Below the pieces are notes generated by a model. It was not told the origin of the DNA, did not search any database, and was given only the letters and a program-made list of their open reading frames with translations. A program made the translations under genes and the position numbers. Source: Peredibacter starrii (GTDB taxonomy: Bacteria; Bdellovibrionota; Bacteriovoracia; Bacteriovoracales; Bacteriovoracaceae). Taken from it: DNA of 64,000 bases. The DNA is taken from positions 2,108,001 through 2,172,000 of the forward strand of contig NZ_CP139487.1 in the NCBI RefSeq assembly GCF_034259205.1. Direction: 5' to 3'. Below are positions 31,692-35,840 of this stretch, one piece after another; within the stretch, counting starts at the first letter, position 1; each line of letters opens with the position of its first letter.

Positions 31692-32258
31692 TTAAGCGAC
31701 CCAGTGCTTTTTCACGGTCTCTTGATCCAGAGTCTGAATATCAAAAACATAACCGTTTCTACCTACAAGCGTGTGAGCGCAATCTAACCAAAGAGAAGTG
31801 TGATTTGTGGCGAGATAAATTGTTTTATCTTTGGTCGATTCCATCACGCTCTTCTTAAAACTTTGAAGCATGAAAGGTGAGAACAGATCCTCATTCATAT
31901 CAATCAGAAGATTTTGAGAAGGATTCATGAGTCCCTTCAAAAGACTTGTCATGAATTTTTCCCAAGTCTGAGATTCCTGGGTCAATTGGTGCGGCTGTTT
32001 TAAAAGATTTAACAGGGCCAACCACTCAGGCTTTAGGGTGTGTTCCAGTTCTTTTAAACTCGAAGGGCCGATTTCAATTTGGAGATTGTCCCAGAGAGAA
32101 AGATGCGGATGAAGAGAAGTCTCCGCCTCAATGTAAGAGAAGCTATTTCCCTTCGAAGGACAATTTGTTCTTAGAAGTTGCAATAGATCCTTCAAAACCT
32201 TCCGGTCCTGAGTTTCTTTCTTATAAAGGTATATGCCAAAAGGCTTTTGCGAGTTCAT
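31692..32258 (-). CDS. ABC-ATPase-like protein lacking Walker A
   Basis: This 188-residue protein has a C-terminal half that follows the ABC ATPase pattern. HPHLSLWDNLQIEI resembles the region after the Q-loop. ESQTWEKFMTSLLKGLMNPSQ sits where the signature motif and helix should be, but without SGGQ. NLLIDMNEDLFSP matches Walker B and D-loop, and LATNHTSLW matches the H-loop. No Walker A is present, so it probably cannot bind ATP in the usual way. It may be a decayed transporter component or a regulatory pseudo-ATPase. No permease gene is adjacent. The start is uncertain. Confidence 0.55.
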   Translation of the reverse strand: MNSQKPFGIYLYKKETQDRKVLKDLLQLLRTNCPSKGNSFSYIEAETSLHPHLSLWDNLQIEIGPSSLKELEHTLKPEWLALLNLLKQPHQLTQESQTWEKFMTSLLKGLMNPSQNLLIDMNEDLFSPFMLQSFKKSVMESTKDKTIYLATNHTSLWLDCAHTLVGRNGYVFDIQTLDQETVKKHWVA

Positions 32259-32320: not shown

Positions 32321-33535
32321 ATGGACATGAAAAAGAAGCTGGAAGAGGCCTACATACCAGATCAAAAGGCTCGGAAAGAAAAGGTTATCATTGGTTTATC
32401 CGGTGGGATCGATTCCTATGTGACGGCCTATCTTTTGAAGATTCAGAAGTATGATCTCATGGCCGTGACCATCATCAATGACTGGGAAGACTGGAAAGGG
32501 GATTCATCTCAAATTCTGTCCTGTCATATTAATCCAAAAAAACTGGATGCCATAAAAGAGTTCTGTCAAAAGTTGAATATTCCATTACAGGTGATCAAGG
32601 CGGCCGGCGAATTTAAAGACGAAATTATCGATGAGTGGATGGGCCATAAATTGACCGGCACTCTCGCACGACCTTGCTGGAATTGCCATGAACTCAGAAT
32701 GCGCATTCTTCATCAGAAGATGAAAGAAGCGAACGTAAAACATCTGGCGACGGGACATTTCGCAAAACTCTTTCATCAGGAGGCCACTGGTAAAGTGTTT
32801 GTTCATACCTCTAATGATGAAGAGAATGATCAATCAGCTCTTTTGTCTCGCCTGCCACAGGACATTTTAAAAAGTTTAATTCTTCCTCTCTCCGATCTTT
32901 CTCAAAAAGAAGTTTTGAAACTGGCAGAAAACTTCGGTGTGGTTGATTCACCGAAAGAACTTAAGATGCATCAGTGCTTAAGTTGGAAAGAAGAGATGAC
33001 TCCGATCTTTGCTGCGCAAATTCCGGAACGCTTCAGAAAAGAAGGCGAATTAGTCACCGCAGATGGAAGCAGCACCATTGGAAATCATATGGGTGTTTTT
33101 CATCATACATTTGGCGAAAGTTTTGAATTTAGAAATCTTGGTAAAACCACAAAAGGTTTTATTGGAGAATATTCTGGTGCGAATCAATTGATCAAAATCG
33201 AAGAAGAAAGTTATTTTATGCATAATAAAATTCTTCTTACGAACTGCGAGTTTTCAACTGAAAGCTCTTGGGTGGAACCGCAAAAAGGTTTTTTGGTCGT
33301 TTCACCTGAAAAAGTCTACGAGTGCTGGGTCCATCCCAAAACTTTGTCATCTGCTTTTATAGAATTAACCAATCCGGAATTTTTAATTGAAGGTGATCTC
33401 CTGAGTGTGATCAAGAAAAAGGGCAAAAATTCCAAAGTTTTTCTCACGGGCAAGGTTCAGTATGTGCCTCGTGATCCAGAAGTAGTAGAAGGAGAAGAAA
33501 GTGTTCCGAAAGTTGATTATTCCCGCGATTTTTAG
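32321..33535 (+). CDS. MnmA-like tRNA 2-thiouridylase paralogue
   Basis: This 404-residue protein has the PP-loop ATP-pyrophosphatase motif LSGGIDSY near residues 25-32, the CWNCHELRMR segment where MnmA has its first catalytic Cys, ATGHFAKL, and MHQCLSWKE where MnmA has its second catalytic Cys. The active-site Cys pair thus appears to be kept. The rest diverges strongly from the canonical mnmA gene 1.1 kb downstream. MnmA thiolates U34 of Lys, Glu and Gln tRNAs; a paralogue may thiolate another position or a small molecule. It overlaps the next gene by 35 bp. Confidence 0.75.
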   Translation: MDMKKKLEEAYIPDQKARKEKVIIGLSGGIDSYVTAYLLKIQKYDLMAVTIINDWEDWKGDSSQILSCHINPKKLDAIKEFCQKLNIPLQVIKAAGEFKDEIIDEWMGHKLTGTLARPCWNCHELRMRILHQKMKEANVKHLATGHFAKLFHQEATGKVFVHTSNDEENDQSALLSRLPQDILKSLILPLSDLSQKEVLKLAENFGVVDSPKELKMHQCLSWKEEMTPIFAAQIPERFRKEGELVTADGSSTIGNHMGVFHHTFGESFEFRNLGKTTKGFIGEYSGANQLIKIEEESYFMHNKILLTNCEFSTESSWVEPQKGFLVVSPEKVYECWVHPKTLSSAFIELTNPEFLIEGDLLSVIKKKGKNSKVFLTGKVQYVPRDPEVVEGEESVPKVDYSRDF

Positions 33536-34607
33536 TTTATCGTGCTCAGTATTTGCCGGTCGTGCGCCGTCTACATATTTCCAGCTTAAGAGTGATCTTG
33601 GACAGGTCTCGAATAAGAATCTGGTTGAATGGGTGAATACCTTTGTAAAGGTCTCTGCTCCTTCAAGAATGGTAGGAATGCAGGGCCATGAAAAGGCACG
33701 TAACTTTCTCTTGGAGACCATTGAAAAACTGGATCCAAAAAAGTCCGGAAAACTTTCGATGAACTCTCTTTCTCCCGAAGTTGAAACGGTTAAAAAGTTT
33801 TATCAAAAAGATTTTGATGAAAAGGTCGAAGGGAAAATTCCTAAAGGAACTCCTGACTATATGAAGTGGCAGAAGTTCACAGGTTATATGCAGAATCTTG
33901 CCGACTCACAGAAAAACAATCAGGTAGAAAATATTGTATGGGAGAAACCAGGGATCAACACGCACCGAGTGTTGGTAGTGACTGCTCACTACGATACCAT
34001 TTCTCACGATCCTAAAACACTTCTGGTAAAAACCAATGAGGCGATGCCTGGTGCAAACTATAATGCTTCAGGTGTAGCAGTTGCTCTTGGTCTTATTAAA
34101 ACCATGGCGCAATTTGATCTGAATTATTCCGTTCAGGTTGTTTTCTTAGACTGGCAGGGAATTGGTTTTCATGGCTCTGAACTCTATGCTCGTGAACTGA
34201 AGAAAGCTGGTAAAGAAGTTTTGGGTGTGGTGAATCTCGAGATGCTGGGCCAGGATTCGAGCTTCTTTGATAAAACAAAAAAGACCGGCAACATGTCTAT
34301 CTACCTTCGTGACAACGCCGATGAGGCCCGTTGGGTTTCTAAGCTTCTTGAGCACGGAAAGAAAATTACGACCAAGGTCACTTTCGAGGCCAAACCAAAT
34401 GGGTTTGAAAATTCGGACAATTTCCGCTTCTGGGAACAGGGCTTTATGTCCGCTACTTTCTCTCAGAATTGGGAGGACGACTTCAATCCAAAGTTCTACC
34501 AAACGGCCCAGGATACCCCGGAAACGCTTAATCACGAGACTCTCTGGCACGCTTATCAATATGTTGGGGGCGCGGTCATCGGGACTCTTCTGGATTTGAC
34601 CAAGTAA
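33501..34607 (+). CDS. M28-family pseudo-peptidase (zinc ligands lost), secreted
   Basis: This 368-residue protein begins with a GTG start (33501, ribosome site GGAGAAGAAA) and a signal peptide, LIIPAIFSLSCSVFA. The fold pattern is clearly M28 aminopeptidase: VVTAHYDTISHD, PGANYNASGVAVALG, FLDWQGIGFHGSELYA, VVNLEMLGQ and FYQTAQDTPET. Family zinc sites are His, Asp (ADDNASG), Glu (EE), Asp and His. Here the bridging Asp is Tyr, the EE pair is Gln-Gly, the later Asp is Glu and the last His is Gln; only the first His stays. It is therefore probably inactive as a metallopeptidase. It lies between two MnmA-type genes. Confidence 0.85.
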   Translation: MFRKLIIPAIFSLSCSVFAGRAPSTYFQLKSDLGQVSNKNLVEWVNTFVKVSAPSRMVGMQGHEKARNFLLETIEKLDPKKSGKLSMNSLSPEVETVKKFYQKDFDEKVEGKIPKGTPDYMKWQKFTGYMQNLADSQKNNQVENIVWEKPGINTHRVLVVTAHYDTISHDPKTLLVKTNEAMPGANYNASGVAVALGLIKTMAQFDLNYSVQVVFLDWQGIGFHGSELYARELKKAGKEVLGVVNLEMLGQDSSFFDKTKKTGNMSIYLRDNADEARWVSKLLEHGKKITTKVTFEAKPNGFENSDNFRFWEQGFMSATFSQNWEDDFNPKFYQTAQDTPETLNHETLWHAYQYVGGAVIGTLLDLTK

Positions 34608-34614
34608 AAACTCC

Positions 34615-34636
34615 TGCACCCTTCCTAAAGGGTGCA
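34615..34636 (+). repeat. inverted repeat between the M28-like gene and mnmA
   Basis: TGCACCCTT (34615-34623), loop CCTA, then AAGGGTGCA (34628-34636) make a perfect 9-bp stem. No T run follows on the plus strand. It could end transcription imperfectly or be an operator, because it sits directly against the -10 of mnmA. Confidence 0.5.
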
Positions 34637-34644
34637 AAATCCGC

Positions 34645-34650
34645 TATAAA
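34645..34650 (+). promoter_or_regulatory. -10 element of a probable leaderless mnmA promoter
   Basis: TATAAA ends 5 nt before the mnmA ATG and no ribosome site is present. A poor -35-like TTCCTA lies 17 bp upstream, inside the right part of the inverted repeat. Confidence 0.4.
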
Positions 34651-34655
34651 GCGGC

Positions 34656-35840
34656 ATGGATTTTTCTTACCAGCCCGAGCTCTTAAAAGAGTACGGAATC
34701 AATCTAACTCATGAAGAATTTCTGGCCAATGGTCAGAAGACCGTTGTTGTCGGCATGTCCGGCGGCGTGGATTCTTCTGTGTCGGCCTTGATTGTGAAAC
34801 TTCAGGGCTACAAAGTTCTGGGTCTTTTCATGAAGAACTGGGATGAAACAAATCCAGATGGCACATGTCCGGCCGATTTCGATTATCAGGACGTGATCAA
34901 GGTTTGTGAGAAACTTGATGTTCCATATTACTCAGTAAATTTCGTACAAGAGTATTGGGACGGAGTTTTCTCTGAGTTCTTGAATGATTACCGTAAAGGT
35001 CATACACCGAACCCGGACATCCTTTGTAACCGTGAAATTAAATTCAAAGTGTTCTACCAGAGGGCAAAACTTCTGGGCGCTGATTACCTGGCCACGGGTC
35101 ACTACTGTCAGCTTGAGAATGGAGAGTTAAAGAAGGGCGCTGATCTGAATAAAGATCAGACTTACTTCCTCTATGCGGTTCAGAAAGAAGTTTTTAAAGA
35201 TGTGCTTTTCCCGATTGGGCATCTTCCAAAACCAAAAGTACGTGAATTAGCAACAATGTTTGATCTGGCGACTTCGGCGAAGAAAGATTCAACCGGTATT
35301 TGTTTTATCGGTGAGAGAAACTTCAAGAATTTCCTCTCTCAATACATTGAGAGCACGAAAGGAAATTTCATTGATATTAAGAATGGAAAAGTGGTCGGTC
35401 AGCACGACGGCACTTGTTTCTATACTCTGGGCCAGCGTAAGGGCATGGGAGTAGGCGGACCAGGCGAGCCATGGTTCGTGGTTGCGAAGAACTTTGAGAA
35501 GAACGAAGTGATTCTTGCTCAAGGACAAGACCATCCAGCGCTTTATGCTGACGGCCTGACTGCAGTAGAGCTTAATTGGCTCACAAATGCTCCTGAAGGC
35601 ACTTTTAAGTGTAAGGCGAAGGTTCGTTACCGTCAGCCGGAACAGCCTTGTACAGTTACTGTAGAGAATAATAGCGTGAAGGTTGTATTTGATGAGCCTC
35701 AACGGGCCATGACTCCAAGACAGTCAATTGTCTTCTATCAGGGAGAAATGTGTATCGGCGGGGGAATTATTAATGAAATCAGCCCGAACTATCACGAACT
35801 GGGTCAAGGACTACCAGAGTTCCTTTCGGTTAAGGTCTAG
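34656..35840 (+). CDS. mnmA: tRNA-specific 2-thiouridylase MnmA
   Basis: This 394-residue protein has all MnmA hallmarks: PP-loop GMSGGVDSSVSAL near residues 32-44, LGLFMKNWDE, TPNPDILCNREIKF with the first catalytic Cys, LATGHYCQL, KDQTYFLYA, STGICFIGERNF with the second Cys, and the C-terminal beta-barrel (YTLGQRKGMGVGG onward). It installs sulfur at C2 of U34 in Lys, Glu and Gln tRNAs in the cytoplasm. No Shine-Dalgarno is visible, in keeping with a leaderless message. It overlaps the small Cys-rich gene on the other strand by 30 bp. Confidence 0.97.
   Translation: MDFSYQPELLKEYGINLTHEEFLANGQKTVVVGMSGGVDSSVSALIVKLQGYKVLGLFMKNWDETNPDGTCPADFDYQDVIKVCEKLDVPYYSVNFVQEYWDGVFSEFLNDYRKGHTPNPDILCNREIKFKVFYQRAKLLGADYLATGHYCQLENGELKKGADLNKDQTYFLYAVQKEVFKDVLFPIGHLPKPKVRELATMFDLATSAKKDSTGICFIGERNFKNFLSQYIESTKGNFIDIKNGKVVGQHDGTCFYTLGQRKGMGVGGPGEPWFVVAKNFEKNEVILAQGQDHPALYADGLTAVELNWLTNAPEGTFKCKAKVRYRQPEQPCTVTVENNSVKVVFDEPQRAMTPRQSIVFYQGEMCIGGGIINEISPNYHELGQGLPEFLSVKV

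Follow-up and report, generated by a model that had tools for sequence, protein, structure and literature searches.

A probable exported pseudo-aminopeptidase of the M28 fold in Peredibacter starrii, and recurrent loss of the active site among its orthologues

The window analysed here, a stretch of 64,000 nucleotides from the single-contig genome (4.15 Mb) of Peredibacter starrii, contains a gene at positions 33501-34607 of the + strand which probably encodes an exported pseudo-aminopeptidase, dead as a peptidase and acting by ligand binding in a re-tooled pocket. With the general base, the bridging ligand and both Zn1 ligands all gone, the protein is, on the established M28 mechanism, very unlikely to be active as a peptidase, and the strong selection on the pocket and its scaffold suggests that a ligand is bound where the substrate once was.

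The M28 gene, its fold and its active site

The open reading frame encodes 368 amino acids from a GTG start, with the Shine-Dalgarno-like sequence AGGAGAAG just 5′ of it. Residues 1-19 (33501-33557, + strand) were recognised by eye from the N-termini of the orthologues as a Sec signal peptide, with probable cleavage after VFA, likewise by eye. A short hydrophobic N-terminal segment of similar kind was seen by eye in almost all orthologues, in line with the original prediction of an exported protein, and from the signal peptide the product is predicted to be exported. A lipoprotein identity was rejected, as no lipobox cysteine after the signal is conserved among the orthologues. A promoter scan of the locus gave 4 promoter-like sites against 5.3 in shuffled sequence, none of them on the + strand.

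Residues 144-355 matched Pfam Peptidase_M28 (PF04389) with 82.5 bits (cut-off 21.3, E 4e-23). An AlphaFold2 model built with 24 orthologues had a mean pLDDT of 87 and a pTM of 0.88; its lower-confidence parts were the active-site loops at residues 171-190 and 321-340, with block means of 62-75. The best Foldseek matches in the PDB were structures of the Vibrio (Aeromonas) proteolyticus aminopeptidase (VpAP), with TM scores of 0.77-0.80 normalised on the target and E 1.7e-14, and VpAP was the nearest PDB relative by sequence as well. The Pfam score and the Foldseek matches place the protein in peptidase family M28 by homology, and, together with the predicted structure, they bear out the clear M28 fold signature first noticed in the sequence. 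By contrast, the match to DUF4910 (PF16254) remained below the cut-off (13.7 bits against 26.6, E 0.028).

In VpAP, Zn1 is bound by D117, E152 and H256, and Zn2 by H97, D117 and D179 (PMC7522609). Aligned with VpAP, the protein keeps the Zn2 ligand His97 as His163 (33987-33989; this and all following codons on the + strand) and has Glu247 (34239-34241) at the Zn2 ligand Asp179. The bridging ligand Asp117 is replaced by Tyr187 (34059-34061; Y or F in the genus), the catalytic base Glu151 by Gln219 (34155-34157; invariant Gln in the genus), the Zn1 ligand Glu152 by Gly220 (34158-34160; G, S or A in the genus) and the Zn1 ligand His256 by Gln334 (34500-34502; invariant Gln in the clade of genera g1, g5 and g25, to which the window belongs). 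Where an active M28 peptidase has the ligands H, D, E, D/E and H, the protein has H163, Y187, G220, E247 and Q334; the catalytic Glu is missing, and the active-site Asp, D99 in VpAP, is kept as D165. Every one of these letters agrees with the original prediction (His, Tyr, Gly, Glu, Gln, and catalytic Glu to Gln), but its statement that only the first His remains did not hold, since H163 and E247 are both capable of binding metal. Glu247 is not a loss, because Glu is the ancestral letter: it occupies this position in 11/11 relatives whose other site residues are intact, of which two lie outside the class, and also in L003, an intact paralogue in the same genome. On the alignment, the private Zn2 ligands (His163 and Glu247) thus remain, while the Zn1 half and the catalytic Glu are lost.

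These assignments were stable. The HYDT, GAxxNASG, DWQG, NLEM and QTxxDT motifs aligned without gaps within the genus and with the outgroups, two separate alignments gave identical site states, and no intact zinc sites appeared elsewhere in the protein in the alignments. His345 was considered as a substitute ligand; it is common in the clade but is Gln in some members and Leu or Phe elsewhere, and the sequences do not support this role. A fold that is kept, catalytic residues that are replaced and purifying selection together make up the pattern of an M28 pseudoenzyme.

The Vibrio proteolyticus leucine aminopeptidase (MEROPS M28; PDB 1amp, 1rtq) shares with the protein its fold, motif order, overall site architecture, active-site Asp (D99) and GAxxNASG turn; the identity in the fold alignment is 15-17%, and the bridging Asp, the catalytic Glu, the Zn1 Glu and the Zn1 His of VpAP are absent. 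Nicastrin is a characterised non-peptidase homologue of family M28. Transferrin receptors 1 and 2 are non-peptidase homologues of the same family (PMC4000134). Like the protein described here, these receptors and nicastrin have the M28 fold without peptidase activity, and a binding role is theirs; they differ in being eukaryotic membrane proteins, whereas this one is bacterial and exported, and its site loss recurs inside a single bacterial family. The glutaminyl-peptide cyclotransferases, which were among the structure-search matches and have the same fold, retain the zinc-binding residues plus the active-site Asp and Glu (PMC4000134), whereas here Gln replaces that Glu and the Zn1 ligands are lost. 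A glutaminyl cyclase identity was rejected on these grounds, as the Asp, Glu and His of the zinc set and the catalytic Glu read Y187, G220, Q334 and Q219. CA_C2195, of the DUF4910 type to which the protein is weakly similar, is an M28-like protein from a bacterium and has other residues in place of the two invariant catalytic ones; it differs in carrying DUF2172 and winged-helix domains and a mono-zinc set of His189, Asp195 and His324 (PMC4000134).

Conservation within the genus and loss across the family

The window belongs to genus g1. All of the same-genus orthologues readable at all six site positions (23/23) had the pattern H, Y (one F), Q, G (one S, one A), E and Q. The search of relatives for the same substitutions therefore found them to be common to the genus, and a sequencing error, a frameshift or chance was ruled out by the genus-wide pattern; relatives with intact ligands do exist, but the change is fixed throughout the genus and is not an error. 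Pairwise dN/dS within the genus was 0.04-0.07, although most dS values were high or saturated; the only same-genus pair with an unsaturated dS (L011/L012, dS 0.25) gave 0.044. The mean entropy in the genus was 0.125 bits for the six site positions against 1.02 for the mature protein, and random sets of six positions matched this conservation in 0.2% of draws. Only positions 187, 219 and 334, which all belong to the former catalytic site, were fixed for different letters in the clade of the window and in the intact set, while D165, N188, D217 and D338 were invariant across all three groups compared. Changes fixed at the former and constancy at the latter indicate a pocket that was altered and then kept on a fixed scaffold. 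The view that the gene encodes a repurposed pseudoenzyme and is not in decay is supported by the low dN/dS, the conserved replacements in the pocket and the synteny described below.

The search was extended to 129 genomes of the order, with distant paralogous matches set aside, and orthologues were detected in about two thirds of them. A tree was built with the site columns removed; of its 81 in-family orthologues, 72 lacked one or more of the six site residues. The complete site was found in the other nine (9/81; genera g2, g13, g14, g18 and g29) and, as H-D-EE-E-H, in both outgroups from elsewhere in the phylum (G129 and G346). From these five in-family genera and two outgroups, the ancestor of the gene is reconstructed with a complete H-D-EE-E-H site. 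On the assumption that no complete site was ever restored, a minimum of 6 (with weak forks collapsed) to 9 independent losses is required; since the deep branching of the tree is weak, exactly how many losses took place, and in what order, is uncertain. Genus g18 contains both states, intact in L034 and broken in L063. The degenerate site is not unique to this gene, as had been implied, since its loss is family-wide and recurrent. Nearly all orthologues had an open frame; one (G023) contained a single in-frame TGA.

The losses took two opposite forms. In g1, g5 and g25 the Zn2 pair was kept and the Zn1 pair lost (26/26 rows), whereas g3, g16, most of g17, g44 and g48 displayed the mirror image, with the Zn1 pair kept and the Zn2 pair lost. 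With H163 and E247 kept and Tyr a possible third ligand, a mononuclear metal site is possible and a metal-free state is unproven. A single metal bound through H163, E247 and Y187 might have a structural use, capture metal or serve a different reaction. The invariance of both private Zn2 ligands in the genus and the retention of the Zn2 pair in all of these 26 rows are consistent with such a site; in human GPAA1, the M28-like site has been proposed to include a metal-binding Tyr and, at site 4, a Glu (PMC7522609), and the mono-zinc CA_C2195, which lacks the peptidase residues, has been crystallised (PMC4000134). However, one member of the genus (L030) has at position 187 a Phe, which cannot bind metal, His163 adjoins D165 and may be kept for structure, and the retention of the opposite half in other branches means that no single metal site is conserved in the family. 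A one-metal protein is on balance unlikely, though it is the alternative to which we give most weight.

Paralogues and the MnmA locus

Three further M28 genes with strong family matches were found in the same genome, and the two that were aligned (L002 and L003) were site-complete, so that catalytic activity can be supplied elsewhere in the genome. L003 (G000:C1:2628820-2629788) is an exported paralogue with an intact H-D-EE-E-H site. Matches of the L003 type (E below 1e-60) occurred in 14 g1 genomes and in members of g5, g10, g11, g22, g28, g34 and g46, and only where the linked M28 gene was of the Tyr/Gln type, went undetected or was truncated at a contig end. This co-occurrence may reflect compensation or shared ancestry; phylogeny confounds the two, many of these genera clustering on the MnmA tree. 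The same distribution would fit a scaffold or regulator that pairs with an active M28 paralogue, for example of the L003 type, or with an envelope protein, its own pocket being vestigial, and pseudopeptidases are known to act as regulators of active cousins (PMC11266112). A vestigial pocket should drift, whereas in the genus Q219 and Q334 never vary and Y187 hardly does. At least 10 g1 genomes, several of them incomplete, gave no L003-type match at E below 1e-60, and the co-occurrence may come from shared ancestry only. A regulatory partner of an intact paralogue ranks next after the one-metal protein and is doubtful, as is, more generally, a scaffold with a vestigial pocket.

The gene lies between two MnmA-type genes on the same strand. 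Upstream, an MnmA-like paralogue (32321-33535, + strand) ends within it, so that 35 bases are shared, as the predicted overlap had it; directly downstream follows the canonical MnmA, a tRNA 2-thiouridine synthase (34656-35840, + strand). The order MnmA-like, M28, MnmA was found in 39 genomes of 14 genera in which both flanks could be read, and MnmA lay directly 3′ of the M28 orthologue wherever the flank was readable. The intergenic stretch from the M28 gene to MnmA contains two stem-loops (34612-34654). The first and strongest (34612-34639) resembles a terminator only when read on the minus strand and would not stop transcription coming from the M28 gene. A short minus-strand ORF (31692-32258) was noticed between the p30709 gene and the MnmA-like gene; most loci of the genus have a counterpart in the corresponding position, with 35-64% identity.

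The SGGxDS PP-loop of the MnmA-like paralogue is broken in several same-genus copies of the L010-L060 set (for example TTSIES in L014 and SGGICS in L019). In most copies outside the genus both catalytic cysteines are missing, yet the gene is retained beside a true MnmA. The paralogue is a probable second pseudoenzyme family, and two derived, probably non-canonical proteins, MnmA-like and M28, are thus encoded side by side 5′ of a normal MnmA.

The M28 gene was absent, with MnmA-like and MnmA then adjoining, in g10, g11, g43, g46, one g13 genome and G091, which is of the same genus as the window. In a phylogeny of MnmA, the clade surrounding the window held only M28 genes of the Tyr/Gln type or none. 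The absence from several close genera and from G091 indicates that the function is dispensable in some lineages. Slow decay of a gene retained only through its place in a co-transcribed MnmA-like/MnmA unit might account for such clean absences and for the repeated loss of catalytic residues across the family, but it is highly improbable given a dN/dS of 0.04-0.12 in all measurable orthologue pairs, the open frames and kept signal peptides, and a clean removal that is evidently tolerated, so that retention by linkage alone is not needed.

The altered pocket and its significance

The pseudo-aminopeptidase reading may be depicted as follows. In the lineage of g1, g5 and g25 the bridging Asp would have changed to Tyr and the Zn1 His to Gln, with the Zn1 Glu and the catalytic Glu also lost, so that neither the general base nor the Zn1 half of the site would remain. 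Selection would have held the other parts of the domain, the scaffold of the pocket included. The protein would act in the cell envelope or outside the cell and bind a ligand in the former substrate pocket, in which Y187, Q219 and Q334 would now provide hydrogen bonds rather than metal ligands; as a guess, the ligand is most simply the N-terminus of a peptide. From the residues present, we infer that peptidase activity and the dinuclear zinc centre are both absent, whereas ligand binding in the old pocket as the new function is a guess. A binding protein and a decoy are both plausible roles, which these results do not separate. Less probable, and at a level with the regulatory partner, is an aminopeptidase that early acquired a second, non-catalytic job, after which separate lineages dropped either zinc half and kept the scaffold, in one pathway with the degenerate MnmA paralogue of the overlapping gene.

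The family of the host is related to the predatory Bdellovibrio. A literature search of incomplete coverage found no paper pairing Bacteriovorax with peptidase M28 or MnmA. As of 2014, more than 550 non-peptidase M28 homologues were listed in MEROPS, few of them characterised (PMC4000134), so proteins of this type were already known; the search turned up no earlier description of this bacterial family, of its site loss, recurrent and two-sided, or of its conserved locus. The best-known M28-fold pseudopeptidases come from animals. In this bacterial set, one conserved locus is occupied by orthologues that range from intact through partly dead to fully dead, with an intact and a broken copy (L034 and L063) in one genus, and they form a natural series for following the role of an aminopeptidase fold without catalysis and the order in which a two-metal site is taken apart. 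The automatic annotation as 'M28 peptidase' probably misstates the function of most copies of this orthologue.
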